64,000 nt of DNA, taken from positions 62,001 through 126,000 of the forward strand of contig NZ_JAAMQI010000011.1 of assembly GCF_013523165.1 (NCBI RefSeq). Reading direction: 5' to 3'. The translations under genes were made by a program, and so were the position numbers. Under the pieces are notes generated by a model. That model ran no database searches and was not told the DNA's origin. It saw nothing but the letters and a program-made list of their open reading frames with translations. Position 1 is the first letter of the stretch. Every line of letters begins with the position of its first letter. Positions 35,556-63,452 of this stretch are shown here, piece after piece. The stretch is from Pseudomonas entomophila (GTDB lineage: Bacteria > Pseudomonadota > Gammaproteobacteria > Pseudomonadales > Pseudomonadaceae).

Positions 35556-36530
35556 TCAGGTGGGTTCGTAGACGACGCCGCCGAGCCGGTAGGTCGAATG
35601 CAAGGCGCCCTCCTTCACGGGCGCTTCGGGCTGGGTCGATTGCCCTTTCGGCCCTGGCAGGTACATGTGGCGCTGTGGCCACACCTCCTGCCGAGCCTTG
35701 ACGTCACGGCGCCGCTCACCACGCACGGCCTTGTCGAAGCGCTTCAAGTCACTCAGTTTCATCTGCCCTTCCCCGGCCAGCACGAAGACCGGCAGGTTGG
35801 CCTTGGGCTGCGCGTCCCATTTCATGCCGGTGGGGCCGAACCACAGCGTGCACCGGGGATGGGGCGCGATCTGCTTGTGCTTGATCAGGACGTCGGCGTC
35901 ATCGAGCCGGATGATCGCGGCCAGGTCCAGGTACTCGGGCGTCTGTTGCACGGGAATGTCTTCGGCGGCCGCGCGTAGCTTGGCCGCATGGGCCAGCTGT
36001 TCGCGAACCTTGGCCACCCGAATGCGCTCGGTGCTGGTGGTGTGCCCGGCCCAGGTGAACGAGAGGCGCCGGGGCGCGCCGTCGAACACGTGCAGGGTGC
36101 GCTGCAGCTGCTTGGTGCTGAACAGCGAGGAGCCCAAGGCCTTGCGCATCAGCTTCGGGCGCATTTCCGGCGCCAGGTTCTGGGCCACCCGCTCCGCTTC
36201 GATGGCATCCATCAGCGCGAGCTTGGCCGTGTTGACGGCCATGGCCAGCGGCAGCACCGACGCGCTGAGCTGAAAGTACCCCGGCAGGCGCATCACCGTG
36301 CCAGGTGCCTGGTCGATGTCCCGCTGGAACGTGCGCAGCGCAGTGATCGTCGCATCGATCGCCTGTTGCCCGGTCAGGGCTTCGACCTCGATGACGTCGG
36401 GTGTGCGCTGTTCCTGCAGGACAGGCAGCTGCCAGACCTTCCCGGCGACCACCAACGACGGCCAGGCCTCGTTGAACTGGGTGACTTCGGCGACCAGCCG
36501 TTGATAGGCGGCCTGAATGGCGTCGTACAT
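35556..36530 (-). CDS. tus: Tus-like DNA replication terminus site-binding protein
   Basis: A 324-residue basic protein with the sequence plan of the Ter-binding (Tus) family; E. coli Tus is 309 residues. Recognisable landmarks in order: RLPGYFQLS (compare RLPGVLCYQ), LQRTLHVFDGAPRRLSFTWA (compare YRTLTVLHDPATLRFGWA), the basic helix RIRVAKVREQLAHAAKLR, the interdomain strands RCTLWFGPTGMKW...LPVFVL (compare IARVWYKGQQ...TPLIALI), and a C-terminal RHMYLPG (compare RLHLYV). Such proteins bind Ter sites and block replication forks from one side. The ATG at 36530 has GAGGA 7 bases upstream. A strong promoter at 36671-36699 overlaps a repeated 19-bp motif, suggesting autoregulation. Family call by remembered motifs; no alignment was run. 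Confidence 0.7.
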   Translation of the reverse strand: MYDAIQAAYQRLVAEVTQFNEAWPSLVVAGKVWQLPVLQEQRTPDVIEVEALTGQQAIDATITALRTFQRDIDQAPGTVMRLPGYFQLSASVLPLAMAVNTAKLALMDAIEAERVAQNLAPEMRPKLMRKALGSSLFSTKQLQRTLHVFDGAPRRLSFTWAGHTTSTERIRVAKVREQLAHAAKLRAAAEDIPVQQTPEYLDLAAIIRLDDADVLIKHKQIAPHPRCTLWFGPTGMKWDAQPKANLPVFVLAGEGQMKLSDLKRFDKAVRGERRRDVKARQEVWPQRHMYLPGPKGQSTQPEAPVKEGALHSTYRLGGVVYEPT

Positions 36531-36955: not shown

Positions 36956-38095
36956 TCATTGCCCAGGCTTGAGCACCACCTTGGTCCAGCCGTCGTCACG
37001 CGCGTCGAAATGGCGGTAGGCCTCCGGCCCCTGCTCCAGCCCCAGGCTGTGCGAGATGATCTGCGAGGGCTTGGCCCGTCCGTGGTGGATCAGCTCGGCG
37101 AGACGCCGGTTGTAGGCCTTCACGTTCGCCTGCCCCGTGCGGATCTGCTGGCCCTTGAACCAGAAGGCGCCGAAGTCGAAGGCCATCTTCCCTTCTTTGG
37201 CCAGATCGCTCTGCGCGCCAGGATCCTGCGGCACGAAGACGCCAACGACACCGATGCCGCCGGTGGCCCGCGTCGAGGCCACCAGATTGTTCATGGTCAG
37301 GTGGTTGGCTTCATGGCCATGGCGATCGCAGCATTGGTAGCCGACGCACTCGCACCCACGGTCGGTACCTTTGCCATGGGTCAGGTTGAGGATCTGCTCG
37401 ACGGCCTTGTCCTCGGCCGAGTTGATCGGCGTGGCGCCCAGTTGCGCAGCCAGTTTCAGGCGGTCTGGCTGGTGATCGACCACGAACACCTGGGCGGCAC
37501 CCTTGATCATTGCTGCGTGGGCGGCCATCAGGCCCACCGGGCCGGCGCCGTAGATGGCGATGCTCTCCCCCGGTTGCAGGCCTGCCAGTTCGGTGGCGTG
37601 CCAGCCGGTGGGGAAGATGTCCGACAGCATCACGTAGTCGTCTTCACGCTCCTGGGCGTCTTCCGGCAGCACCAGGCAGTTGAAGTCGCCATAGGGCACG
37701 CGCAGCAGTTCGGCCTGGCCGCCTGCGAAGGTGCCCATGTCGGCGAAGCCATAGGCCGCGCCTGCCGAACCGGGGTTCACGGTCAGGCAATAGCCGGTCA
37801 GGCCGCGCTCGCAGTTGTCGCAGAAGCCACAGCCGATGTTGAACGGCAGGCAGACGCGGTCGCCGACCTTGACCCGGTCGACCCCGACGCCGACCTCGAT
37901 GACTTCACCCATGTTTTCATGCCCGAAGATGCGACCTTGCTCGAAGGAGGTGCGGCCTTCGTACATGTGCAGGTCCGAGCCACAGATATTGGTGGTGGTG
38001 ACCCTGACCAGCACGTCGGTAGGTTTTTCGATCTTCGCGTCCGGTACGTTCTGGACGGAAACGTCACGAGGGCCGTTGTAGACGATCGCTTTCAT
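36956..38095 (-). CDS. Zinc-dependent MDR dehydrogenase, glutathione-independent formaldehyde dehydrogenase type
   Basis: A medium-chain dehydrogenase/reductase of 379 residues, close in plan to Pseudomonas FdhA (about 399). Catalytic-zinc residues are in TNICGSDLHMYEG and FGHENMGEV; the structural-zinc lobe has CGFCDNCERGLTGYC. The family-typical VNPGSAGAAYGFADMG and DIFPTGWHATELAG follow, then the NAD-binding AIYGAGPVGLMAAHAAMIKGA and a late GHEA insert. Expected reaction: NAD-linked oxidation of formaldehyde or related aldehydes without glutathione. It is a single-gene unit with its own terminator. Substrate specificity is uncertain because this clade also includes general alcohol dehydrogenases. 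Confidence 0.8.
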   Translation of the reverse strand: MKAIVYNGPRDVSVQNVPDAKIEKPTDVLVRVTTTNICGSDLHMYEGRTSFEQGRIFGHENMGEVIEVGVGVDRVKVGDRVCLPFNIGCGFCDNCERGLTGYCLTVNPGSAGAAYGFADMGTFAGGQAELLRVPYGDFNCLVLPEDAQEREDDYVMLSDIFPTGWHATELAGLQPGESIAIYGAGPVGLMAAHAAMIKGAAQVFVVDHQPDRLKLAAQLGATPINSAEDKAVEQILNLTHGKGTDRGCECVGYQCCDRHGHEANHLTMNNLVASTRATGGIGVVGVFVPQDPGAQSDLAKEGKMAFDFGAFWFKGQQIRTGQANVKAYNRRLAELIHHGRAKPSQIISHSLGLEQGPEAYRHFDARDDGWTKVVLKPGQ

Positions 38096-38347: not shown

Positions 38348-39757
38348 TCAGTCGTGAGCGCTCGCTACTCGCCCTGCCTTGATAGCCGCCGCCTGCTCGC
38401 GTGTCGCCAGGCAGTAGTACAGCGGCACCGTCACCAGCAACCCGAACAGCCAGGACAGGTCGGCGCCTTCGATCAGGTTCGAATAGGGCCCCACGTACAG
38501 CGCCGTATTGGCGAATGGCAGCTGCACCAGGATCCCGCAGGCGTAGGCGATGATCGCATGGTGATTGAAGCGGCCGTAGATGCCGCCGTCGGCACTGAAG
38601 ATCGAGGCGATGTCGTAGTGGCCTTTCTTGATCAGGTAGAAGTCGATCAGGTTGATCGACGCCCACGGCACCAGGACCAGCAACAGCGCCAGAATCAGCC
38701 CGATGAACTGGCCGATGAAGTCCGCCGACGCGTTCAGTGCCACGATCCCGCACCCGATCAGGATCAGCGAGGCCAGCACCACGCGCACCTTCACGCTGGG
38801 CGTCCAGTGGGCGAAGAAGGTCTGGATCGCGGTGACGATCGACAGCACCGCACCGTACAGGTTGAGGGCGTTGTGGCTGATGATGTTGAGCAGGAACAGC
38901 ACCATCAGCACCGGCCCGAGCCAACCGGTGGCCTGCTTGACCGCCTCCATCGCATCGGTACCCTGCGGCACACACAGCACCGCCACCGCGCCGAAGCTGA
39001 AGCACAGGATCGTGCCCAGGGTCGCACCGAAATAAGTGGCCCAGAACGGCTTGGCGATGCCGATCTCCTTGGGCAGGTAGCGCGAGTAATCGGAGGTGTA
39101 GGGCGAGAAGCTGATCTGCCAGATGGTGCCCAGCGACACGGTGGCGACGAACCCTGACAGGTTGAAGGCGCCGCGGCTGAAGAAGTCGGCTGGCAGCTCC
39201 TGGCTGAACATCATGATGAAGCCGGCCAGCAAGGCCGAGCCCATCACCCAGGTGCCGATGCGATTCAGGCCATGGATGAAGCGGTAGCCGATCACGCCGA
39301 TGGCCGTGGCGCTCAGGGCACCAATGACGATGGCGGTCGGCATGGGCACGCCGGGGGCGATGCCATGGATCGACTTGCCCGCCAGGACGATGTTGGAGAT
39401 GAAGAAGCCGACGTAGATCAAGGCGGTGAAGAAGACGATCAGCAAGGCGCCATAGCGGCCGAACTGCCCACGGCTCTGCACCATCTGCGGAATGCCCAGC
39501 TGCGGTCCCTGCGCAGAGGCCAGGGCGATGACCACGCCCCCGATGAGGTGCCCGAGTGCGATGGCGATCAACCCCCAGAGCAGGTTCAGGTTGAACACCT
39601 GGACCACCATGGCGCCGGTCACGATGGGCAGGGGCGCGATGTTGGTGCTGAACCAGAGGGTGAACAGGTCGCGCGCCTTCCCGTGGCGCTCGGCAGGTGG
39701 AACGTAATCGACCGTGTGATTCTCGACAAGCTGGTGCTGCGAAGACGGCTGGGACAT
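38348..39757 (-). CDS. NCS1-family purine/cytosine-type permease
   Basis: Imports a nucleobase, hydantoin or similar N-heterocycle through the inner membrane. The 469 residues form about 12 hydrophobic helices. Family markers are FTLWFSTNIAPLPIVTGA in helix 1, GHLIGGVVIALASAQGPQLGIPQM (helix 2 substrate region), SFSPYTSDYSRYLP, and LIDFYLIKKGHYDI near the end, as in CodB/NCS1 proteins. It is transcribed away from the flavin reductase/monooxygenase pair; the shared intergenic region carries operator-like sites, which ties transport to the catabolic genes. Confidence 0.85.
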   Translation of the reverse strand: MSQPSSQHQLVENHTVDYVPPAERHGKARDLFTLWFSTNIAPLPIVTGAMVVQVFNLNLLWGLIAIALGHLIGGVVIALASAQGPQLGIPQMVQSRGQFGRYGALLIVFFTALIYVGFFISNIVLAGKSIHGIAPGVPMPTAIVIGALSATAIGVIGYRFIHGLNRIGTWVMGSALLAGFIMMFSQELPADFFSRGAFNLSGFVATVSLGTIWQISFSPYTSDYSRYLPKEIGIAKPFWATYFGATLGTILCFSFGAVAVLCVPQGTDAMEAVKQATGWLGPVLMVLFLLNIISHNALNLYGAVLSIVTAIQTFFAHWTPSVKVRVVLASLILIGCGIVALNASADFIGQFIGLILALLLVLVPWASINLIDFYLIKKGHYDIASIFSADGGIYGRFNHHAIIAYACGILVQLPFANTALYVGPYSNLIEGADLSWLFGLLVTVPLYYCLATREQAAAIKAGRVASAHD

Positions 39758-39826
39758 AGGATTTTAGCTCGAAAGGTCGTTTTTATCGTTGTACGGAAAC
39801 CGCTCTGGGCGGCCTCTCAGCTGAGG

Positions 39827-39847
39827 ACCATATTATGGTATTCCAAA
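39827..39847. promoter_or_regulatory. Operator O1 (GntR-type) on the permease promoter
   Basis: ACCATA-T-TATGGT (39827-39839) is a perfect inverted repeat that runs into TATGGTATTCCAAA, a degenerate form of the TATGGTATACCATA site at O3. It covers the predicted -10 of the permease promoter. Confidence 0.6.
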
Positions 39848-39857
39848 CTTTTGACAA
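39830..39857 (-). promoter_or_regulatory. Predicted promoter of the permease gene
   Basis: On the minus strand TTGTCA (39857-39852), 16-bp spacer, TAATAT (39835-39830). Operator O1 overlaps the -10, consistent with repression. Confidence 0.5.
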
Positions 39858-40005
39858 CACTGATCCGCCGTAAATCGCGCGTTCTGATCTGTTCAGGATC
39901 ACCTTCGCCGCTTTCGCTGAATCCATTCAGGCCTTGAATTACGTGGCCTCCAGCCGCTCATCCTGTTTTTTTACGCCCTGCAAAAAGCGCTTGCAAATCG
40001 AGTAT

Positions 40006-40019
40006 TACGGTATACCATC
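40006..40019. promoter_or_regulatory. Operator O2 (GntR-type) upstream of the flavin reductase/monooxygenase unit
   Basis: TACGGTATACCATC contains the GGTATACC core found at O3. A TTGCAA box (39991-39996) stands 20 bases left of the TATACC core, the same geometry as at O3, so a promoter-overlapping operator is likely. Confidence 0.6.
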
Positions 40020-40064
40020 AGACACATCAACTATAAAAAACGGCCCCCAATCGAGGATCACGCC

Positions 40065-40550
40065 ATGATTGACGCAACCGTCTACAAGAACGTCCTGGGC
40101 TCGTTCCCCTCCGGCGTCACGGTCATCACTACCCTGGACGACGACGGCTCGATCGTCGGCCTGACCGCCAGCGCGTTCTCCTCCCTGTCGATGGACCCGC
40201 CCCTGGTGCTGTTCTGCCCGAACTACACCTCCGACTCCTACCCGGTGCTGATCCGCAACAAGCGTTTCGCCATCCACCTGCTCTCCGGTGACCAGCAGGC
40301 CGAAGCCTATGCTTTCGCCCGCAAGGGCAAGGACAAGGCCGCCGGCATCGAGTGGACCTTGAGCGAGCGCGGCAACCCGCTGCTGGCCAACGCCACCGCC
40401 ATCATCGAATGCGAACTGTGGCGCGAATACGAAGGGGGCGATCACGCCATCATGGTCGGCAAGGTCGACAACCTGATCGTGCCGGCCGATGCACCGAACC
40501 CCATGATCTATTGCCGCGGCAAGATGGCCAGCCTGCCAGCCTTCAGCTGA
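40065..40550 (+). CDS. Flavin reductase-like protein 1 (two-component monooxygenase reductase)
   Basis: A 161-residue protein of the HpaC/RutF/NtaB-like flavin reductase family: FPSGVTVITT, GLTASAFSSLSMDPPLVLFC (flavin phosphate-binding region) and late GDHAIMVGKVDNL. It would supply reduced FMN or FAD to the luciferase-like monooxygenase encoded 87 bases downstream. A second copy of the same family lies at 44840-45325, about two-thirds identical by eye. Its promoter region carries operator O2. Confidence 0.85.
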   Translation: MIDATVYKNVLGSFPSGVTVITTLDDDGSIVGLTASAFSSLSMDPPLVLFCPNYTSDSYPVLIRNKRFAIHLLSGDQQAEAYAFARKGKDKAAGIEWTLSERGNPLLANATAIIECELWREYEGGDHAIMVGKVDNLIVPADAPNPMIYCRGKMASLPAFS

Positions 40551-40637
40551 GCCAGAGGTCGCTCGCGGGCCCGCGCCCGCCCTGCCCGCCCCAGCCTGCC
40601 CGGCAGGCCACTCCGACAATTCTCAGAGGAAAGCCCC

Positions 40638-41681
40638 ATGAAGTTTTCGTTGTTCGTGCACATGGAACGTTGGGATGACCAGGTCAGCCATCGCCAGCTG
40701 TTCGAAGACCTGACCGAACTGACCCTGATGGCCGAAGACGGCGGTTTCAGTACTGTCTGGATCGGCGAACACCACGCCATGGAATACACCATCTCGCCCA
40801 GCCCGATGCCCTTGCTGGCCTACCTGGCGGCGCGCACCGAAACGATTCGCCTGGGTGCCGGCACCATCATCGCGCCGTTCTGGAACCCGATCCGCGTGGC
40901 GGGTGAATGCGCCCTGCTGGACGTGATCAGCAACGGGCGCATGGAGGTCGGGCTGGCCCGGGGCGCCTACCAGTTCGAGTTCGACCGCATGGCCAACGGC
41001 ATGCCGGCGACCGAGGGCGGCAAGGCCCTGCGCGAGATGGTCCCGGCGGTGCGTGAACTGTGGAAAGGCGACTACGCCCACGAGGGCGAGGTGTACAACT
41101 TCCCCACCTCGACCAGCGTCCCCAAGCCGGTGCAGAACGGCATGCCGCCCATGTGGATCGCCGCCCGCGACCCCGACTCGCACAACTTCGCGGTCAAGCA
41201 TGGTTGCAACGTGATGGTCACGCCGCTGATGAAGGGCGACGAGGAAGTGCTGGACCTGAAGAACAAGTTCCAGGCCGCGCTCGACAACAACCCGGACGTC
41301 CCCCGCCCTCAGCTGATGGTGCTGCGCCACACCCACGTGCACAGCCCGGCAGACCCCGAGGGCTGGAAGGTGGGCGCCGAGGCGATCTCGCGCTTCTACC
41401 GCACCTTCGACGCCTGGTTCGGCAACAAGACCACGCCGGTCAATGGCTTCCTGGCACCGAGCCCGGAATCCAAGTTCGCCGAAGTGCCCGCCTTTGCGCT
41501 GGAGAACATCCGCAAGAACACCATGATCGGCACGCCGGAAGAGATCATCGCGCGGATCAGGTACTACCAGGAACTGGGCGTCGACGAGTTCAGCTTCTGG
41601 TGCGACAACAGTCTGCCCCATGCCGAGAAGAAGAAGTCGCTGGAGCTGTTCATCAAGGAAGTGGTGCCGGCGTTTCGTTGA
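40638..41681 (+). CDS. Luciferase-like (LLM) flavin-dependent monooxygenase
   Basis: A TIM-barrel class F3/bacterial-luciferase-type oxygenase of 347 residues that uses reduced flavin and O2. Recognisable segments: MKFSLFVHMERWDD at strand 1, FSTVWIGEHHAMEYTISPSPM, RLGAGTIIAPFWNPIRVAGECALLD, NGRMEVGLARGAYQFEF and the C-terminal IGTPEEIIARIRYYQELGVDEF. AGAGGAAAG precedes the ATG. With the neighbouring reductase and NCS1 permease it resembles the logic of RutA/RutF in uracil ring opening or PyrA/PyrE in pyridine degradation. The substrate is unknown. Confidence 0.85.
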   Translation: MKFSLFVHMERWDDQVSHRQLFEDLTELTLMAEDGGFSTVWIGEHHAMEYTISPSPMPLLAYLAARTETIRLGAGTIIAPFWNPIRVAGECALLDVISNGRMEVGLARGAYQFEFDRMANGMPATEGGKALREMVPAVRELWKGDYAHEGEVYNFPTSTSVPKPVQNGMPPMWIAARDPDSHNFAVKHGCNVMVTPLMKGDEEVLDLKNKFQAALDNNPDVPRPQLMVLRHTHVHSPADPEGWKVGAEAISRFYRTFDAWFGNKTTPVNGFLAPSPESKFAEVPAFALENIRKNTMIGTPEEIIARIRYYQELGVDEFSFWCDNSLPHAEKKKSLELFIKEVVPAFR

Positions 41682-41804
41682 GTGCGCCAGGGCAGCTCTA
41701 ACTACCCGGTAGCCCCTGGGCCGCGACCCGCCCCACCGCGGCCTAGCCCTTACGGGACCACGATCCAGCCCGACGTCTTTTCCGCATCCCCTGTTGCAGT
41801 TATC

Positions 41805-41826
41805 GTCTTATGGTATACCATAAGAC
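41805..41826. promoter_or_regulatory. Operator O3: perfect 22-bp palindrome before the second catabolic unit
   Basis: Half-site GTCTTATGGTA followed by its exact reverse complement. The TGGTATACCA centre fits GntR/FCD-type operators. A TTGCAG box (41794-41799) sits 20 bases left of TATACC, as at O2. The site is about 34 bases ahead of the DUF1185 gene start. Confidence 0.75.
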
Positions 41827-41859
41827 AACAAGCCCCGAGCAATCGCCATGGAGCCGCTC

Positions 41860-42456
41860 ATGAGTTTCGAAATCCGCAAGATCGTCACCTACTCCGAAGA
41901 AACCCGCATCGAAGGCGGCAAGGCCACCGACACCCCAGTGACCATGGTCGGCCTGGCCGTCGTGATCAAGAACCCATGGGCCGGCCGTGGCTTCGTCGAA
42001 GACCTCAAGCCTGAGATCCGTGAGCACTGCTCCGACCTCGGCGCGCTGATGGTCGAGCGCCTGATCGCGGCCATCGGTGGCGCGGACAAGATCCAAGCCT
42101 ACGGCAAGGCCGCCGTGGTCGGTGCCGACGGTGAGATCGAGCACGCCTCTGCGGTGATCCACACCCTGCGTTTCGGCAACCACTACCGCGAAGCGGTGCA
42201 GGCCAAGAGCTACCTGAGCTTCACCAACAAGCGTGGCGGCCCAGGCACGTCGATCCAGATCCCGATGATGCAGAAGGACGACGAAGGCCAGCGCTCGCAC
42301 TACATCACCCTGGAAATGCAGATCGAAGACGCGCCGCGTGCCGACGAGATCGTCGTGGTCCTGGGTGCGTCCGACGGTGGCCGCCTGCACCCGCGCATCG
42401 GCAACCGCTACATCGATCTCGAAGAGATCGCCGCCGAGAAAGCCAACGCTCAATAA
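41860..42456 (+). CDS. Amino acid synthesis family protein (DUF1185/AA_synth)
   Basis: A 198-residue protein that begins MSFEIRKIVTYSEETRIEGGK, the usual N terminus of DUF1185 proteins. The ATG at 41860 is chosen over the one at 41848 because GGAG lies 6 bases upstream of it. Conserved-looking blocks are NPWAGRGFVEDLKPEI, YGKAAVVGADGEIEHASAVIH, FTNKRGGPGTSIQIP and SDGGRLHPRIGNRYID. The family name reflects a loose early annotation; its reaction is not established as far as I know. Placement between an oxygenase and a hydrolase under operator O3 suggests a hydrolytic or isomerising step in the catabolic pathway (inference). Confidence 0.75.
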   Translation: MSFEIRKIVTYSEETRIEGGKATDTPVTMVGLAVVIKNPWAGRGFVEDLKPEIREHCSDLGALMVERLIAAIGGADKIQAYGKAAVVGADGEIEHASAVIHTLRFGNHYREAVQAKSYLSFTNKRGGPGTSIQIPMMQKDDEGQRSHYITLEMQIEDAPRADEIVVVLGASDGGRLHPRIGNRYIDLEEIAAEKANAQ

Positions 42457-42514
42457 CAATGATCAGAGGAAACGGGCGCGCCGTCGGCCGCCCTGCCCTC
42501 AAGGAGCGCCGTCC

Positions 42515-43348
42515 ATGATTCAGCCTGCTGCTGAACGTACACCGGCCGGGACCAGTTACCTGAGCCTCGGCCAGGGTCAACCCGTGGTGCTGATCCACGG
42601 TGTGGGCCTGAACAAGGAAATGTGGGGCGGGCAGTTCGTCGGCCTGGCCAACGACTACCGCGTCATCGCCTACGACATGCTGGGCCACGGCATGAGCCCA
42701 CGCCCGGCGGTCGACACCGATCTGGCAGGCTATGCCGCGCAGTTGGTCGAACTGCTCGACCACCTGCAGATCCAGCAGGCGACGGTGATCGGCTTCTCCA
42801 TGGGCGGCCTGGTGGCCCGGGCCTTCGCCCTGCACTACCCGCAGCGCCTGAGCGCGCTGGTCGTGCTCAACAGCGTCTTCAACCGCACGCCCGAGCAGAG
42901 CGCCGGGGTCATCGCGCGGGCCGCACAAGCGGCCGAGCTGGGCCCGGACGCCAACGTCGACGCCGCCTTGGAGCGCTGGTTCAGCCCTGAATACAAGGCC
43001 GCCAACCCGGCCCAGGTCGCAGCCATCCGCCAGGTGCTGGGCGACAACGACCCCCAGGGTTACCACACCACCTATTCGCTGTTCGCCACCCAGGACATGT
43101 ACCGCGCCGATGACCTGGATGCGATCCAGGCGCCGACGCTGATCGCCACCGGCGAGCTGGACACCGGCTCCACCCCGGCCATGACGCGCCAGCTGGCGGC
43201 CCGCATCCCCGGCGCCCGGAGCGTGATCCTCGCCGAACAACGCCACATGATGCCGGTGGAAGCGCCGCGTGAAGTCAACCGCATGCTGCTGGACTTCCTC
43301 GGCCACGCTCGCACGCTTACCGAATCTGCCAAGGGGATAGTCGCATGA
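42515..43348 (+). CDS. Alpha/beta-fold hydrolase
   Basis: A 277-residue alpha/beta hydrolase like RutD, PcaD or aromatic meta-cleavage hydrolases. The start at 42515 has AAGGAG 8 bases upstream; longer in-frame starts would overlap the previous gene. Markers: oxyanion loop VLIHGVGLNKEMWG, YDMLGHGMS, nucleophile elbow GFSMGGLVAR, the acid probably in TGELDTGS, and catalytic His in EQRHMMPVEAP. Expected to hydrolyse the amide or ester product left by the oxygenase. Its stop overlaps the aldehyde dehydrogenase start by 4 bases. Confidence 0.85.
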   Translation: MIQPAAERTPAGTSYLSLGQGQPVVLIHGVGLNKEMWGGQFVGLANDYRVIAYDMLGHGMSPRPAVDTDLAGYAAQLVELLDHLQIQQATVIGFSMGGLVARAFALHYPQRLSALVVLNSVFNRTPEQSAGVIARAAQAAELGPDANVDAALERWFSPEYKAANPAQVAAIRQVLGDNDPQGYHTTYSLFATQDMYRADDLDAIQAPTLIATGELDTGSTPAMTRQLAARIPGARSVILAEQRHMMPVEAPREVNRMLLDFLGHARTLTESAKGIVA

Positions 43349-44826
43349 CCCTCGTTCGTTTCCAGATGTGCATCGACGGCCAATGGCGCGATGCGCAGAG
43401 CGGCAAGACCTTCGACAGCCTCGACCCGGCCACCGCCCAGGCCTGGGCCCAGCTGCCCGACGCCGACGAGGCCGATGTCGAGCAGGCCGTGCAGGCCGCC
43501 CAGCGCGCCTTCGAGGCCCCGGCCTGGCGCGGCCTGACCGCCACGGCGCGGGGCAAGCTGCTGCGCCGCCTGGGCGACCTGATCGCCGAGAACAATGAGC
43601 ACCTGGCCCAGCTGGAAAGCCGCGACAACGGCAAGCTGATCCGCGAGACCCGTGGCCAGGTCGGTTACCTGCCAGAGTTCTTCCACTACACCGCGGGCCT
43701 GGCCGACAAGCTCGAAGGGGGCACGCTGCCGCTGGACAAGCCGGACCTGTTCGCCTACACCGTGCACGAGCCGATCGGCGTGGTGGCCGGGATCATCCCG
43801 TGGAACAGCCCGCTGTACCTGACCTCGATCAAGCTGGCACCGGCCCTGGCCGCCGGCAACACCATCGTGCTCAAGCCCTCCGAGCATGCCTCGGCGACCA
43901 TTCTCGAGCTGGCCCGCCTGGCCCTGGAAGCCGGCTTCCCGCCGGGCGTGGTCAACGTGGTCACCGGCTTCGGCCCGAGCACCGGCGCTGCCCTCACCCG
44001 CCACCCCCTGGTACGCAAGATCGCCTTCACCGGCGGCGCGGCCACGGCGCGTCATGTGGTGCGCAGCAGCGCCGAGAACTTTGCCAAGCTGTCGCTGGAG
44101 CTGGGCGGCAAGTCGCCGAACATCATCTTCGCCGATGCCGACCTGGACAGCGCCATCAACGGCGCCGTGGCCGGGATCTATGCCGCCTCCGGGCAGAGCT
44201 GCGTGGCCGGCTCGCGCCTGCTGGTGCAGGACGAGATCTTCGACGAGTTCGTCGAGCGCCTGATCGCCCGCGCCCAGCGCATCCGCATCGGCAACCCCCA
44301 GCACGACGACAGCGAGATGGGCCCGATGGCCACCGCGCAACAGCTGGCCGTGGTCGAGCAGCTGGTCGCCGCCGCCCAGGCCGAAGGCGCCACGCTGCGC
44401 ATGGGCGGCAAGCGTGCCGAGGTCGAGGGTGACGGCTGGTTCTACGAGCCGACGCTGTTCGAATGCGACAGCAACGCCATGACCATCATGCAGGAAGAGG
44501 TCTTCGGCCCGGTGGCGGCGGTGATCCGCTTCAAGACCGAAGAAGAGGCGCTGGCGATTGCCAACGACTCGCAGTTCGGCCTGGCCGCCGGCATCTGGAC
44601 CCGCGACCTGGGCCGTGCGCACCGGCTGGCGCGCGATGTCCGCTCGGGTATCATCTGGGTCAACACCTACCGCGCGGTCTCGGCCATGGCGCCGATCGGC
44701 GGTTTCAAGAACAGCGGCTATGGCCGCGAGAGCGGCATCGATTCGGTGCTCGCCTATACCGAGCTGAAGACCGTGTGGATCAACCTGTCCACCGCGCCGA
44801 TGCCCGACCCCTTCGTGATGCGTTGA
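43345..44826 (+). CDS. NAD(P)-dependent aldehyde dehydrogenase
   Basis: A 493-residue member of the ALDH superfamily. Markers: IIPWNSPLYLTSIKLAPALAAG and KPSEHAS (cofactor Lys), FTGGAATARHV, general-base Glu in LELGGKSPN, catalytic Cys in ASGQSCVAGSR, and EEVFGPVAAVI. It most likely oxidises a semialdehyde generated by ring opening. Translationally coupled to the hydrolase gene; 13 bases separate it from the second flavin reductase. Confidence 0.9.
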   Translation: MTLVRFQMCIDGQWRDAQSGKTFDSLDPATAQAWAQLPDADEADVEQAVQAAQRAFEAPAWRGLTATARGKLLRRLGDLIAENNEHLAQLESRDNGKLIRETRGQVGYLPEFFHYTAGLADKLEGGTLPLDKPDLFAYTVHEPIGVVAGIIPWNSPLYLTSIKLAPALAAGNTIVLKPSEHASATILELARLALEAGFPPGVVNVVTGFGPSTGAALTRHPLVRKIAFTGGAATARHVVRSSAENFAKLSLELGGKSPNIIFADADLDSAINGAVAGIYAASGQSCVAGSRLLVQDEIFDEFVERLIARAQRIRIGNPQHDDSEMGPMATAQQLAVVEQLVAAAQAEGATLRMGGKRAEVEGDGWFYEPTLFECDSNAMTIMQEEVFGPVAAVIRFKTEEEALAIANDSQFGLAAGIWTRDLGRAHRLARDVRSGIIWVNTYRAVSAMAPIGGFKNSGYGRESGIDSVLAYTELKTVWINLSTAPMPDPFVMR

Positions 44827-44839
44827 GAGGTGCACTGAG

Positions 44840-45325
44840 ATGATCGAACCCGGCATCTACAAAGACGTGATGGGCTCGTTCCCATCCGGCGTGACGGTGG
44901 TCACCACCCTGGATGCCGACGGCGGCATCGTCGGCATCACCGCCAGTGCGTTCAGCGCATTGTCGATCGATCCGGCGCTGGTGCTGTTCTGCCCCAACTA
45001 CAGCTCGGACACCTACCCGGTCCTGCGCGACAGCAAGTCCTTTGCCATCCACCTGCTGTCGGCCGAGCAGACCCGGGAAGCCTATGCCTTCGCCGGCAAG
45101 GGCAAGGACAAGGCCAAGGGCATCGACTGGCAGCTGAGCGAACGGGGCAACCCCATCCTGCCCAACGCCACGGCGGTGATCGAATGCGAGCTGTGGCGCG
45201 AATACGACGGTGGCGACCACGCCATCATCGTCGGGGCGGTCAAGCACCTGATCCTGCCGGACGAGCCGGTGCCACCGATGCTCTACCACAAAGGCAAGCT
45301 CGGCGCCCTGCCGCCGCTTGGCTGA
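44840..45325 (+). CDS. Flavin reductase-like protein 2
   Basis: A 161-residue paralogue of the protein at 40065-40550, with the same length and the same blocks (GSFPSGVTVVTTLDADG, GITASAFSALSIDPALVLFC, ERGNPILPNATAVIECELWREY). It could be an alternative reductase for the same oxygenase, serve another oxygenase elsewhere, or have drifted to another flavin or pyridoxal-phosphate chemistry. It ends the tight part of the operon: a terminator-like hairpin follows at 45335. Confidence 0.85.
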   Translation: MIEPGIYKDVMGSFPSGVTVVTTLDADGGIVGITASAFSALSIDPALVLFCPNYSSDTYPVLRDSKSFAIHLLSAEQTREAYAFAGKGKDKAKGIDWQLSERGNPILPNATAVIECELWREYDGGDHAIIVGAVKHLILPDEPVPPMLYHKGKLGALPPLG

Positions 45326-45334
45326 AACGTGTTT

Positions 45335-45378
45335 GGGGTCGTGCCGCACTCACCCTCGGTTGCGGCCCCGTTTTCTTT
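45335..45378 (+). terminator. Intrinsic terminator or attenuator inside the catabolic operon
   Basis: GGGGTCG (45335-45341) pairs with CGGCCCC (45363-45369; seven pairs including one G-U), followed by GTTTTCTTT. It separates the enzyme genes from the decarboxylase-like, regulator and NUDIX genes, which share the strand. Confidence 0.55.
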
Positions 45379-45393
45379 CCAGGAGCCTGCAGC

Positions 45394-45783
45394 ATGAGCC
45401 GCGAGAAGTACGAGAAAGGCCTGGCGATCCGCACCCAGGTGCTGGGCGAGGACTACGTCAACCGTTCGATCCAGAACGCCGATGCGTTCACCCAACCCTT
45501 GCAGGAACTGGTCACCGAGTACTGCTGGGGCCACGTCTGGGGCCGTGATGGTTTGTCGCTCCAGGAGCGCAGCATGATAAACTTGGCCATGATTTCCGCG
45601 CTCAACCGGCCCCATGAGCTCAAGCTGCATATCCGCGGCGCCTTGCGCAATGGGCTGAGCCGTGAACAGATTCGCGAAATTCTGCTCCAGGTCGGCATCT
45701 ATTGCGGCGTGCCTGCGGCGGTGGACAGCTTCCGCCTGGCCCGCGAAGCGTTCGCCGAGGCCGACGCGGAGTCAACCCGTTAA
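45394..45783 (+). CDS. Carboxymuconolactone decarboxylase-family protein
   Basis: A 129-residue all-helical protein resembling PcaC (4-carboxymuconolactone decarboxylase): MSREKYEKGLAIRTQVLG at the N terminus, LQERSMINLAMISALNRPHELKLHIRGALRNG and ILLQVGIYCGVPAAVDSFRLA. It has the PcaC-like His region rather than the CxxC of AhpD peroxidase relatives. It probably performs a decarboxylation or lactone step in this pathway; the substrate is unknown. AGGAG lies 8 bases before the ATG. Confidence 0.8.
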   Translation: MSREKYEKGLAIRTQVLGEDYVNRSIQNADAFTQPLQELVTEYCWGHVWGRDGLSLQERSMINLAMISALNRPHELKLHIRGALRNGLSREQIREILLQVGIYCGVPAAVDSFRLAREAFAEADAESTR

Positions 45784-45870
45784 CAACGGGCCAGTCGAAC
45801 CTTGCAGGACGCACCCAGGTTCGGGGTGCCCGGCATCCGGGGTTCGATGGCCTCTCTCAGAGCGCACTCG

Positions 45871-46623
45871 ATGAAACGCCAGCCCCTCGACGACAGCTTC
45901 AAGGTCAACCGCAACCCCGTTACCCTGCGTGAAATCGTGCTCGACAAGCTGCGCGCCGCGATCATGAACTTTCATCTGCTGCCCGGCGACCGCCTGGTCG
46001 AGCGCGACCTCTGCGAGCGGCTGGGCGTCAGCCGTACCTCGGTGCGCGAGGCCTTGCGCCACCTGGAGTCCGAGGGGTTGGTGGAGTTCGCCGACGCCAA
46101 GGGGCCGCGGGTCGCCATCATCACCCTGGAGGACGCCCGCGACATCTACGAGCTGCGCTGCGTGCTCGAAGGCCTGATCGTCCAGCTGTTCACCCTCAAC
46201 GCCAAGGCCAAGCACATCCGCGCCCTGGAACGGGCGCTCGAGGAAAACCGCGAAGCCCTGGAGCAAGGCGAACTGCAGCAGGTGCTCGAGTCGGTCCAAG
46301 GGTTCTACGACGTGCTGCTCGAAGGCTCGGGCAACCATGTCGCCGCGACCCAGTTGCGCCAGTTGCAGGCACGCATCAGCTACCTGCGCGCCACCTCGGT
46401 GTCGCAGGTCAACCGCCGAGGCGCCAGCAACCTGGAGATGGAAAAGATGGTCGAGGCGATCAAGAGCGGCGATCCGCTGGTCGCTCACCAGGCCTCGGTC
46501 GACCATGTGCGCGCTGCCGCCAAGGTGGCCTTGGAGTACCTGCGCCAGAAGCAGGATGACACGGCCAAGGTGCGCGATCTGGTCGCCCCGGTGGCACTCA
46601 AGGACCCTCGCATAGGCCGCTGA
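45871..46623 (+). CDS. GntR-family (FadR/FCD) transcriptional regulator
   Basis: A one-component ligand-responsive regulator, 250 residues from the ATG at 45871; in-frame ATGs at 45847 and 45802 are possible and no ribosome site is decisive. The N-terminal winged helix (LREIVLDKLRAAIMNFHLLPGDRLVERDLCERLGVSRTSVREALRHLESEGLVEF in outline) is followed by an all-helical FCD ligand domain (DARDIYELRCVLEGLIVQL, HVRAAAKVALEYL). FCD regulators typically repress catabolic operons until a pathway acid binds. The three TGGTATACCA-type sites (O1-O3) are the obvious targets. Confidence 0.85.
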   Translation: MKRQPLDDSFKVNRNPVTLREIVLDKLRAAIMNFHLLPGDRLVERDLCERLGVSRTSVREALRHLESEGLVEFADAKGPRVAIITLEDARDIYELRCVLEGLIVQLFTLNAKAKHIRALERALEENREALEQGELQQVLESVQGFYDVLLEGSGNHVAATQLRQLQARISYLRATSVSQVNRRGASNLEMEKMVEAIKSGDPLVAHQASVDHVRAAAKVALEYLRQKQDDTAKVRDLVAPVALKDPRIGR

Positions 46624-46625
46624 CC

Positions 46626-47189
46626 ATGCCCAACGCCCCGCGCTACTGCCCCCATTGCACCCTGGAACTGGCTCGGGGCGTTCCGCCCGGCGATACCCAT
46701 GAACGCCTGCACTGCACCGGCTGCGGGTACATTCATTACGTGAACCCGAAGATCATCGCCGGTTGCATCATCGAACGCGATGGCAAGTACCTGCTCTGCC
46801 GCCGCGCCATCCCGCCGCGCCCTGGCACCTGGACGCTGCCTGCCGGCTTCATGGAGGCGGGCGAAACCACCGAAGAGGCCGCCCTACGCGAAGTGTGGGA
46901 AGAGACCGGCGTGCGCGCCGACATCTTCGCGCCCTATTCGGTGTTCAGCGTGCCCCGCATCAGCGAGGTCTACATCATCTTCCGCGCCACCGTCATCGAG
47001 GAAACCGGACAGTTCGGTGCCGAGACGCTGGAATACCGGTTCTTCGAACCGGCGGACATCCCCTGGGACGACATCTACTACCCGGCCATCCGGCAGATCC
47101 TGGAGCGGTACATCCTCGAGCGCCAGGCAGGGGTGTACGGCATCTACATGGGCAACGACGATTCGGGCAAGGTGCACTTCATTCGCTGA
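46626..47189 (+). CDS. NUDIX hydrolase with N-terminal zinc ribbon
   Basis: A 187-residue NudC-like pyrophosphohydrolase. The N terminus has a zinc ribbon CPHC...CTGCG, followed by HYVNPKIIAGCIIE and the Nudix box beginning GFMEAGETTEEAALREVWEE, which satisfies GX5EX7REUXEEXGU when the next residues TGV are included. Substrate unpredictable (NADH, ADP-ribose or flavin nucleotides are all plausible). It starts 2 bases after the regulator stop, so it is probably co-transcribed; a link to flavin or NAD turnover in the pathway is only a guess. A short GC hairpin (47193-47206) follows the gene. Confidence 0.85.
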   Translation: MPNAPRYCPHCTLELARGVPPGDTHERLHCTGCGYIHYVNPKIIAGCIIERDGKYLLCRRAIPPRPGTWTLPAGFMEAGETTEEAALREVWEETGVRADIFAPYSVFSVPRISEVYIIFRATVIEETGQFGAETLEYRFFEPADIPWDDIYYPAIRQILERYILERQAGVYGIYMGNDDSGKVHFIR

Positions 47190-61745: not shown

Positions 61746-63452
61746 ATGATCGAGGTAACCGAGGTTTCCATCGCCGCGCTGCGCGAGGCGCTCGTCAGTG
61801 GCCGTACGACGGCGGTCGAGCTGGTCGAGGCCTACCAGGCACGTATCGCGGCCTACGATGGCGCCACGACCGACACGGCCTTGAACGCCGTGGTGGTGCA
61901 CAACCCTGAAGCACTCGACGAGGCGCGGGCGTCGGATGCACGCAGGGCACGGGGCGAGAGCCTGGGGCCGCTGGACGGCATCCCGTACACGGCCAAGGAC
62001 AGCTACCTGGTCAAAGGGTTGACCGCCGCCTCCGGCAGCCCGGCGTTCGCTGACCTGGTCGCGCAACGGGATGCCTTCACCATCGAGCGCCTGCGCGCCG
62101 CCGGAGCCATCTGCCTGGGCAAGACCAACATGCCGCCCATGGCCAACGGTGGCATGCAGCGCGGTGTCTACGGCCGTGCCGAAAGCCCGTACAACGCCCG
62201 CTACCTGACCGCACCTTTCGCCTCCGGCTCGTCCAATGGTGCCGGCACGGCGACGGCAGCCAGCTTTGCAGCCTTTGGCCTGGCCGAGGAAACCTGGTCC
62301 AGCGGGCGTGGCCCGGCGTCGAACAATGGCTTGTGCGCCTACACCCCCTCGCGTGGCGTGATCTCGGTCCGTGGCAACTGGCCGTTGACGCCGACCATGG
62401 ACGTGGTGGTGCCCTATGCCCGCACCATGGCCGACCTGTTGCAGGTGCTCGACGTGGTGGTGGCCGACGACCCGGACACCCGTGGCGACCTCTGGCGCCT
62501 GCAGCCTTGGGTGCCGCTTCCACGGGCCTCCAGCGTACGCCCGGCCAGCTACCTGGCGCTGGCGACCGATGCCAGCGCCCTGCGCGACAAGCGTTTCGGT
62601 GTCCCGCGCATGTACATCAATGCCGATGCCGAAGCCGGCACCTCCGACACGCCTGGGATCGGCGGCCCGACCGGCCAGCGCATCCACACCCGTGAAAGTG
62701 TCATGGCCCTGTGGCACGACGCGCGCCAGGCCCTGGAGGCCGCCGGTGCGCAGGTCATCGAGGTGGACTTCCCGCTGGTGTCCAACTGCGAAGGCGATCG
62801 CCCGGGCGCGCCGACCGTGTTCAACCGCGGCCTCGTGTCGCCCGAATTCCTGCATGACGAACTGTGGGAGCTGTCGGGCTGGGCCTTCGACGATTTCCTG
62901 CGCGCCAACGACGACCCACGGCTGAACCGCCTGGCGGACGTCGACGGCCCGAAGATCTTCCCCCATGACCCAGGCACCCTGCCCAACCGCGAAGACGACC
63001 TGGCCGCCGGGATGGACGAATACGTGAACATGGCCAAGCGCGGGCTCAAGCGCTGGGACGAGATCGCCAGTGTGCCGGACGGCCTGCGCGGCCTGGAGCG
63101 CACGCGCAAGCTGGACCTGGAAGACTGGATGGACGCGCACGGGCTCGACGCGGTGATCTTCCCCACCGTGGCCGACGTCGGCCCGGCGGACGCCGACGTC
63201 AACCCGGCCAGTGCCGACATCGCCTGGAGCAATGGCGTGTGGGTGGCCAACGGCAACCTGGCGATTCGTCACCTGGGCGTCCCGACCGTGACCGTGCCGA
63301 TGGGCGTGATGGCCGATATCGGCATGCCGGTGGGGCTGACCCTGGCAGGTCGCGCCTATGACGATTCGGCGCTGCTGCGCTATGGCGCAGCGTTCGAAGC
63401 GACCGGCCAGCGCCGCCAGGTGCCGCCCCGCACGCCACCGCTGGCGGGTTGA
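61746..63452 (+). CDS. Amidase-signature family hydrolase
   Basis: A 568-residue amidase-signature enzyme starting MIEVTEVSIAALREALVSGR. The Ser-cis-Ser-Lys triad can be placed: Lys84 in PYTAKDSY, the cis-Ser in FASGSSNGAGT (162/163), and the nucleophile near Ser186 in EETWSSGRGPASNNG. It would hydrolyse a carboxamide to acid plus ammonia. The GG-SS-G motif is varied to GSSNGAG, and the usual TGGSIR to WSSGRG, so substrate preference may be unusual. The preceding MFS transporter could supply the substrate, but they are 203 bp apart. The open frame extends upstream without a plausible start. Confidence 0.82.
   Translation: MIEVTEVSIAALREALVSGRTTAVELVEAYQARIAAYDGATTDTALNAVVVHNPEALDEARASDARRARGESLGPLDGIPYTAKDSYLVKGLTAASGSPAFADLVAQRDAFTIERLRAAGAICLGKTNMPPMANGGMQRGVYGRAESPYNARYLTAPFASGSSNGAGTATAASFAAFGLAEETWSSGRGPASNNGLCAYTPSRGVISVRGNWPLTPTMDVVVPYARTMADLLQVLDVVVADDPDTRGDLWRLQPWVPLPRASSVRPASYLALATDASALRDKRFGVPRMYINADAEAGTSDTPGIGGPTGQRIHTRESVMALWHDARQALEAAGAQVIEVDFPLVSNCEGDRPGAPTVFNRGLVSPEFLHDELWELSGWAFDDFLRANDDPRLNRLADVDGPKIFPHDPGTLPNREDDLAAGMDEYVNMAKRGLKRWDEIASVPDGLRGLERTRKLDLEDWMDAHGLDAVIFPTVADVGPADADVNPASADIAWSNGVWVANGNLAIRHLGVPTVTVPMGVMADIGMPVGLTLAGRAYDDSALLRYGAAFEATGQRRQVPPRTPPLAG

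Follow-up and report, generated by a model that had tools for sequence, protein, structure and literature searches.

A probable trigonelline catabolic cluster in Pseudomonas entomophila and its putative operator

Which compound is degraded by the products of the ten genes at positions 38348-47189 of a 64,000-nucleotide stretch of Pseudomonas entomophila DNA (NZ_JAAMQI010000011.1, positions 62,001 to 126,000; hereafter the window)? The window belongs to contig 2 of a draft assembly of 85 contigs and 4.39 Mb. All ten genes were intact open reading frames, and each protein passed the Pfam cut-off of its named family, in agreement with an earlier note on this DNA. That note had proposed a pathway in which the ring of an N-heterocycle is opened by a flavin-dependent two-component system, which is still the best reading. 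It had also called the pathway uncharacterised and without a name, and this part is replaced here: the gene set is that of a trigonelline (tgn) cluster. From sequence comparisons, we consider it highly probable that the locus is the Pseudomonas cluster for catabolism of trigonelline (N-methylnicotinate), controlled by a GntR/FCD regulator predicted to bind TATGGTATACCATA. We infer the substrate and the enzyme steps of the window locus.

The tgn link was first suggested by a passage of the 7-hydroxycoumarin paper (PMC7913881) that names TgnF as a DUF1185 homologue stimulating TgnE. Annotated plasmids were searched with the luciferase-like monooxygenase (LLM) of the window, giving 345 records; the match in Acinetobacter sp. 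PK01 (L111; our labels L, G and C stand for loci, genomes and contigs) was annotated as tgnB, "flavin-dependent trigonelline monooxygenase oxygenase component" (50% identity over 346 residues). The neighbours of tgnB in PK01 encode DUF1330, GntR, DUF1185 and alpha/beta hydrolase proteins, tgnA, tgnC, an NCS1 "cytosine permease", a succinic semialdehyde dehydrogenase (SSADH), a protein of the carboxymuconolactone decarboxylase (CMD) family and a hypothetical protein that matches porins weakly; purU, folD and sarcosine-oxidase-like genes adjoin the cluster. The most conserved part between the window and PK01 was CMD (77%), followed by the NCS1 permease (56%), DUF1185 (55%), the GntR regulator (37%) and the hydrolase (36%). 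The aldehyde dehydrogenase (ALDH) of the window was nearer to TgnC (52%) than to the SSADH (37%) of PK01, and flavin reductase 1 (FR1) was 39% identical over 130 residues to the N-terminal reductase part of TgnA. A passage of PMC8269262 has the trigonelline ring opened by TgnA/TgnB.

Other tgn-type clusters gave a similar picture. The DUF1185 protein, whose relatives of solved structure are 2qtp and 3byq, was 55-61% identical to the proteins of four proteobacterial clusters and 44 and 48% identical to the two of Arthrobacter. The regulator was 37-43% identical to those of four proteobacterial clusters and alike around the helix-turn-helix. The hydrolase was the weakest of the tgn matches, its fold family being broad (34-41% to the hydrolases of five clusters, ~41% to the Mesorhizobium and Arthrobacter ones). 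The window has a TgnB-type LLM, a TgnC dehydrogenase, a TgnD hydrolase and a TgnF (DUF1185) protein. We also took a shared operator together with the regulator family as a mark of such a cluster, a criterion that was set here and is unpublished, and both were found. DUF1185 and the decarboxylase, which the earlier note had regarded as foreign additions, are at home in this setting; the tgn cluster contains a TgnF-type DUF1185, CMD and NCS1.

The NCS1 permease gene runs leftward and FR1 and LLM rightward, both starting from one shared gap. A 166-base gap follows LLM, and DUF1185, hydrolase, ALDH, flavin reductase 2 (FR2), CMD, GntR/FCD and NUDIX then follow on the same strand. The features are as follows.

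38348-39757, minus strand: NCS1-family permease, probable trigonelline importer (PF02133, 151 bits).
39835-39846, plus strand: weak operator-like site upstream of the permease gene (2 mismatches).
40007-40018, plus strand: operator-like site before FR1, ACGGTATACCAT (1 mismatch; identical in the window and 51 loci).
40065-40550, plus strand: FR1, short TgnA-type reductase without the C-terminal domain (PF01613, 148 bits).
40638-41681, plus strand: LLM, TgnB-type oxygenase (PF00296, 193 bits).
41805-41826, no strand: GTCTTATGGTATACCATAAGAC, a perfect palindrome of 22 bp and the proposed operator for the genes from DUF1185 to NUDIX (12-bp core in the window and 50 loci).
41848-42456 (alternative start 41860), plus strand: DUF1185 / AA_synth protein of TgnF type (PF06684, 241 bits).
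42515-43348, plus strand: alpha/beta hydrolase of TgnD type (PF00561, 106 bits).
43345-44826, plus strand: aldehyde dehydrogenase of TgnC type.
44840-45325, plus strand: FR2 (PF01613, 147 bits; 70% identical to FR1).
45394-45783, plus strand: PcaC-like CMD-family protein (TIGR02425, 152.3 bits).
45871-46623 (ATG at 45871), plus strand: GntR/FCD regulator of TgnR type (PF07729 and PF00392, scanned from 45874).
46626-47189, plus strand: NUDIX protein, its Nudix box intact, homologous to the C-terminal domain of TgnA (PF00293 and PF14803).

The place of the oxygenase was examined in a midpoint-rooted tree of 46 LLM proteins, which leaves the sister relations of the clades tentative. The window clade comprised 13 rows (Pseudomonadaceae, Arthrobacter and L124). 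The TgnB clade comprised 22 rows, including the annotated TgnB and proteins of S. meliloti, Leisingera, Mesorhizobium and Caballeronia. The two formed a joint group of 35 with a support of 100/100, and L117 and a clade of 10 lay outside it. Alignment positions were compared over 12 window, 22 TgnB and 10 outlying rows, with 90% or more counted as conserved. All three clades shared 59 conserved positions, the window and TgnB clades had in common 29 fixed positions that were not fixed in the outlying clade, and there were 10 clean fixed differences between the window and TgnB clades; Glu44-His45-His46 of the LLM was conserved in all three. The window oxygenase appears TgnB-like at most fixed positions, and a shift of substrate is possible. 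Its closest named relative was the LLM of P. entomophila 6C6 (97%). AlphaFold models were too poor for use (mean pLDDT of 55 for NUDIX and 67 for LLM).

A third LLM clade (L144-L147, L139-L141 and L123; e.g., L145:5762-11888) has nearly the same gene set, namely DUF1185, TgnA-like, ALDH, LLM and hydrolase genes, with CMD too in L144-L147. The operator TATGGTATACCATA was found upstream of DUF1185 in 0 of these 8 loci. Genomes G048 and G129 carry a third-clade LLM beside the window-type LLM, and the third clade may serve a paralogous pathway that acts on a different pyridine betaine.

The palindrome was revealed by aligning the two intergenic gaps. Fifty-two loci entered the gap alignment, and those not counted fell to a length filter; before DUF1185, the window and 50 loci all read ATGGTATACCAT. 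The window has three matches to ATGGTATACCAT when up to two mismatches are allowed, where 0.30 would be expected, and TATGGTATACCATA precedes DUF1185 and, imperfectly, FR1. The view of the earlier note that the genes form one regulated locus gains support from this operator-like palindrome at two or three places. A promoter scan gave one promoter-like match, toward the permease, against 0.5 expected, and was not used. Across the whole genome, five places matched the 12-mer with at most one mismatch, and none matched the pattern read backwards. Two of the five are in the locus, one (C33:10390) is between the ribBA and DUF1330 genes, and the remaining two (C9:17199 and C22:76932, one mismatch each), in or beside unrelated genes, were taken as chance.

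The same operator was found well beyond Pseudomonas. It was exact in both PK01 and the window, and a scan of up to 350 bases upstream of DUF1185, allowing two mismatches, found TATGGTATACCATA in 15 of the 20 TgnB-clade loci showing DUF1185 (exact in PK01, L129, L130, and L131), in none of the 8 loci of the outlying clade and in 3 of another 5 from the window clade. It was missed in L143 (3 mismatches) and L117 (4); four TgnB/outlying-clade loci without DUF1185 in the stretch and L142 were unscored. With up to three mismatches within 200 bp upstream, an operator-like site preceded 64/68 NCS1, 65/123 pooled FR1/FR2, 8/10 ribBA, 7/7 DUF1330 and 9/11 ABC binding-protein genes. DUF1185 scored 10/53 in this count because its starts were called too far upstream. 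The 3-mismatch site upstream of CMD in 25/46 loci was left out of the count, as it probably belongs to the coding sequence of FR2.

The locus was then compared among Pseudomonas, with 80 loci out of the 475 relatives found. The order LLM-DUF1185-hydrolase-ALDH-FR2-CMD-GntR-NUDIX was kept in 52 of the 80 loci and is therefore that of a conserved cluster and not a chance run of genes; of the remaining 28, some were cut by contig ends and some had other genes after LLM. Among 199 Pseudomonas genomes, 112 had the window-type LLM and 112 a strong DUF1185 (E below 1e-66), with both in 111, neither in 86, LLM alone in one and DUF1185 alone in one; these counts were uncorrected for genome kinship. Genomes with a 43-44% LLM only (G044 and G119) or a weaker DUF1185 only (13, including G153, G044 and G119) were counted as lacking. 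The single LLM-only genome, G153, had a partial DUF1185 match just below the threshold. In 38 genomes hand-picked from the 111, the distance between LLM and DUF1185 was at most 4 kb in 7, at most 25 kb in 22, and greater in 16. The two genes are kept in the same genome and are often not adjacent. In a sample of 398 genomes from the phylum, LLM was found in 23 and DUF1185 in 59, and all 23 LLM genomes were among the 59. LLM was not seen without DUF1185 in this sample, and DUF1185 has other settings too.

Gene content was tabulated for 43 loci, in stretches of up to 29 kb, some of them cut by contig ends. They contained the hydrolase (40), DUF1185 (39), the TgnC-type dehydrogenase (39), CMD (17), a separate NUDIX gene (10) and SSADH (5). 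By these counts, DUF1185 goes with the oxygenase, dehydrogenase and hydrolase more closely than with SSADH. L150, the fullest of the Pseudomonas loci, comprised DUF1185, hydrolase, TgnC-type, FR2, SSADH (71% to that of PK01), CMD, GntR and NUDIX genes, and after NUDIX, DUF1330 (on the opposite strand), ribBA, an ABC importer, FR1 and LLM. The window locus looks like a compact form of L150. In other Pseudomonas, an SBP_bac_8-type ABC importer replaced the NCS1 permease or was present in addition to it.

Two further observations were made on these loci. In two of the 112 LLM-bearing Pseudomonas genomes, the LLM was in broken frames; the match came in two overlapping pieces in G046 (L148) and G080, which would fit either a frameshift in the gene or an error of sequencing. 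In P. putida-type loci (e.g., L004:5016-6683), a methyl-accepting chemotaxis protein gene was located near the NCS1 permease. Such a gene occurred in the NCS1 stretch of 39/66 loci and in 36 ended at most 160 bases from the permease gene; in the window it does not adjoin the permease. Its product is a candidate chemoreceptor for the compound that the permease would take up.

The opening of trigonelline should release methylamine, so that methylamine genes would be expected near LLM. Methylamine-type genes were found near LLM in 8/80 loci, in stretches ending at most 9 kb from LLM. L056, L062, L068 and L074 had GMAS-like (type III glutamine synthetase) and mgs-like genes, with GATase, GXGXG, glutamate-synthase-like and PurU genes, and with FolD likewise in L062, L068 and L074 and not in L056; L008 had part of the GMAS/mgs-like set, and L055, L059 and L061 had a haem N-demethylase and a trimethylamine monooxygenase. 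The families were searched on members from L056, L059 and L062, and the others were assigned by clustering at 55% identity. Such neighbours support an N-methylated substrate. As for growth, LLM was found in P. viridiflava, P. cichorii and P. capsici, members or neighbours of the P. syringae group. Table 2 of PMC10890144 lists all 53 P. syringae isolates from kiwifruit (33 + 2 + 18) as using trigonelline as sole carbon source, isolates that may or may not carry the locus.

A pathway can be proposed on this basis. The ring-opening chemistry used here is reportedly that worked out for the tgn cluster of Acinetobacter by Perchat and colleagues in 2018. Trigonelline would be imported by the NCS1 permease. 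FR1 and FR2 would supply reduced flavin mononucleotide (FMN), and the LLM, judged by homology, would open the pyridine ring at C5-C6, giving N-methylformamido-methylene hydroxybutyrolactone, which is said to be the bond and the product in the tgn pathway. DUF1185 might help to open the cyclic hydroxylactone, letting the aldehyde be oxidised, and the TgnC-type dehydrogenase would give methylidene-succinate. The hydrolase would free formate and methylamine and leave 2-formylsuccinate, a product predicted by our own reasoning, the decarboxylation of which to succinic semialdehyde the PcaC-like protein might speed. An SSADH encoded elsewhere would yield succinate for the tricarboxylic acid cycle. 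NUDIX and an operator-bearing ribBA on another contig would supply FMN. The logic of import, ring opening, oxidation and hydrolysis in the earlier note is retained; its order, with hydrolysis before oxidation, is reversed, as in tgn the aldehyde (hydroxylactone) is reportedly oxidised before the hydrolase acts.

Two of these proteins need comment. The CMD protein has no CxxC motif and scored 152.3 bits with the PcaC model TIGR02425, just under the cut-off of 155.7, and it was the only match to this model in the genome at E 1e-10. A moonlighting PcaC of protocatechuate breakdown was considered and is unlikely, since no protocatechuate dioxygenase beta subunit was found in the genome. The PcaC-like CMD may catalyse 2-formylsuccinate decarboxylation. 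In the Arthrobacter cluster, CMD was not found and a tautomerase-family protein with proline as its second residue was present; the tautomerase superfamily includes a malonate semialdehyde decarboxylase. The presence of CMD in just 17 of the 43 tabulated loci counts against the decarboxylase role. The ring-opening product and cyclic succinic semialdehyde are both of the 5-hydroxybutyrolactone form, and DUF1185 may open such lactones. The DUF1185-bearing 7-hydroxycoumarin locus of PMC7913881 handles a lactone too, although the authors of that paper saw no effect of HcdD.

The operator also led to a putative flavin supply. The site at C33:10390 lies between divergent ribBA and DUF1330 genes, on another contig than the window locus; in a draft of 85 contigs, the distance of ribBA from the locus can be given as "another contig" and no more. 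RibBA, at 797 bits, exceeded the bifunctional-synthase cut-off of 693 and had both domains in Pfam, and ribBA is often inside the cluster in relatives. The operator (at most two mismatches) stood 44-69 bases upstream of ribBA in 16/16 usable cases, including that of the window genome itself (L167); L072, where the ribBA start lies beyond the stretch, was left out. As a control, 4/889 upstream windows of other open reading frames had a match. These four (two at c78, one each at c204 and c218) lie on the opposite strand near FR1 and probably see the real FR1 site. The genetic switch of the regulon seems also to control a vitamin B2 gene, the product of which would feed the ring-opening enzyme. 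A riboflavin kinase gene is present in the Arthrobacter cluster.

The NUDIX protein would complete this supply. It was 26% identical to the C-terminus of PK01 TgnA (E 3e-9), and hhalign matched it to the TgnA C-terminal domain with a probability of 99.4 over 99 columns, including a shared end motif like GIYxGNxxSGxV. The solved chain 3rh7 has almost the same sequence as the TgnA of S. meliloti, and the window NUDIX matched the C-terminal part of 3rh7 directly, though weakly (E 3e-5). The Nudix box (GX5EX7REUXEEXGU) was intact in 10/10 separate Pseudomonas-type proteins and absent in 24/24 long reductases; the Arthrobacter NUDIX, outside the 10/10 count, departs from the box at the first Glu. 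The separate protein is predicted to be catalytic and, judged from its neighbours, may provide the oxygenase with FMN made from flavin adenine dinucleotide (FAD). A passage of PMC5389931 names FAD diphosphatase as a known Nudix activity; 3cng, the best solved relative of the window NUDIX, is listed there without an assigned function. A rule that a short reductase always comes with a NUDIX gene was dropped, since L123 and L141, whose reductases have 189 and 177 residues, showed no NUDIX gene.

Could the Pseudomonas clade use a tgn-like route on another N-methylated pyridine (homarine, N-methylnicotinamide or N-methylpyridinium)? In favour of this, the window and TgnB clades are separate, with the 10 fixed differences, and the third clade, with its near-identical gene set and its coexistence with the window type in G048 and G129, indicates that paralogous pathways exist. 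However, the operator, the permease type (56%), CMD (77%) and the SSADH of L150 (71%) are shared with annotated tgn, and the third clade, without the operator in 8/8 loci, is hence a better candidate for another substrate. For homarine, a passage of PMC8269262 considers action of TgnA/TgnB unlikely for steric reasons. We regard this alternative as rather unlikely. A pathway of the Rut or Pyr kind acting on a plain N-heterocycle such as uracil or pyridine, the likeness drawn in the earlier note, would account for the NCS1 permease, the LLM with its flavin reductase, and a RutD-model score of 96 bits for the hydrolase (cut-off 238.5). The Rut likeness of the oxygenase did not hold, as the window LLM was not among the matches of the RutA model (E 0.001); four weak matches in the genome, none of them the window LLM, fell under the TIGR03612 cut-off of 498.3 bits. 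FR1 and FR2, at 66.5 and 63.7 bits, were far below the 254.75 bits required for RutF, and the methylamine-type neighbours in 8/80 relatives also speak against such a substrate, which we consider very improbable.

The genes might also be neighbours that do not form one pathway, with the permease, CMD and NUDIX, for example, as passengers. LLM and DUF1185 do lie apart in other Pseudomonas (farther than 25 kb in 16/38 hand-picked genomes), but their co-occurrence is near-perfect even when they are apart, operator-like sites precede the NCS1, FR1/FR2, ribBA, DUF1330 and ABC binding-protein genes, and the same partners recur in other classes and on an actinobacterial plasmid. We give this explanation hardly any credence.

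Several points weigh against the trigonelline reading itself. The window locus has no SSADH (TgnE), and a relative of 62% is encoded elsewhere in the genome, on contig 84. Its two reductases, of 161 aa each, are without the TgnA C-terminal domain. The LLM is just 50% identical to TgnB and in a separate clade, so that a shifted substrate is possible, and the tgn names of PK01 are annotation by homology. TATGGTATACCATA was missing in L127, L134, L136, L137, L138 and Arthrobacter L112, and in the phylum sample 36 of the 59 DUF1185 genomes had no LLM. No close GMAS was found in the window genome (best 39%), where methylamine may be unused or otherwise handled. The steps given to DUF1185 (hydroxylactone) and CMD (decarboxylation) are hypothetical, as is the supply of FMN by NUDIX and ribBA. 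According to a passage of PMC10890144, its own pathovar actinidiae group differs from the descriptions of others, including in trigonelline use.

Trigonelline is an abundant plant betaine that is also found in the sea. The oxygenase was found in 112/199 sampled Pseudomonas genomes, and a trigonelline trait would be common in the genus. A literature search on tgn terms gave no paper on Pseudomonas trigonelline genes among the matches listed. Among those listed for pyridine degradation and for homarine, titles and abstracts pointed to no usable paper on a pathway. The operator was unreported in the literature found, though no search was aimed at the operator or the flavin arm. The present analysis adds the operator and its extension to a flavin gene on another contig, the division of TgnA between a reductase and NUDIX, and the CMD and DUF1185 proposals. 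The operator offers a direct way to map the regulon, and its presence at ribBA suggests that flavin synthesis can be adjusted by a catabolic regulon to supply a two-component monooxygenase. Testable jobs are given to three poorly understood proteins (DUF1185, CMD and NUDIX). Taken together, and as a tentative proposal that is less likely than not to hold in full, a conserved trigonelline regulon might extend across proteobacterial classes via the one operator TATGGTATACCATA. Its Pseudomonas flavin arm would consist of a dedicated RibBA and a NUDIX protein making FMN from FAD, raising FMN at oxygenase induction; the PcaC-like protein would be a 2-formylsuccinate decarboxylase, with a tautomerase-superfamily substitute in Arthrobacter, and DUF1185 a hydroxylactone opener.

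Other genes of the window were set aside. An fdhA-like neighbour (36956-38095) was not counted in the locus, as it scored 335 of 637 bits, under the FdhA cut-off; its sole match among the 80 Pseudomonas loci was 28%, in L052. Positions 35556-36530 encode a member of the Ter family, which binds replication terminus sites (PF05472). At 1995-24731, one frame of 7578 codons is followed by outer-membrane, ABC and HlyD-type secretion genes, which looks like a giant secreted protein with its type I exporter.

Among known systems, RutA shares the logic of an LLM plus a flavin reductase, whereas the window LLM does not fit the RutA model. The Pyr pyridine pathway of Arthrobacter likewise has flavin-dependent ring opening and aldehyde oxidation. 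The plasmid pDCT5 of Arthrobacter dokdonellae (L112) shares an LLM of 76%, two DUF1185, hydrolase, ALDH, an NCS1-type permease and NUDIX; unlike the window, it has a tautomerase, the riboflavin kinase gene and SSADH, and CMD and the operator were not found. On this plasmid, the two DUF1185, riboflavin kinase and tautomerase genes stand beside the LLM at L112:4342-15068, and transfer between phyla is likely. Sinorhizobium L114, Mesorhizobium L113 and Leisingera L116 share the GntR-DUF1185-hydrolase-reductase-LLM-ALDH core. Unlike the window, L113 and L114 have an ABC importer adjoining the core, and CMD is not counted in the core of the three, L116 having an annotated CMD-family gene ~5 kb off. 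In Mesorhizobium (L113:10205-12004), hydrolase and TgnA-type reductase are fused in one protein of 599 residues. Compared with the tgn cluster of Acinetobacter, the window has two short reductases and a separate intact NUDIX instead of one fused TgnA, no SSADH, the permease and FR1-LLM in divergent units, and ribBA and DUF1330 on another contig of the genome with the operator between them. The two have in common the regulator, DUF1185, hydrolase, reductase and LLM, TgnC-type dehydrogenase, NCS1, CMD and the operator.

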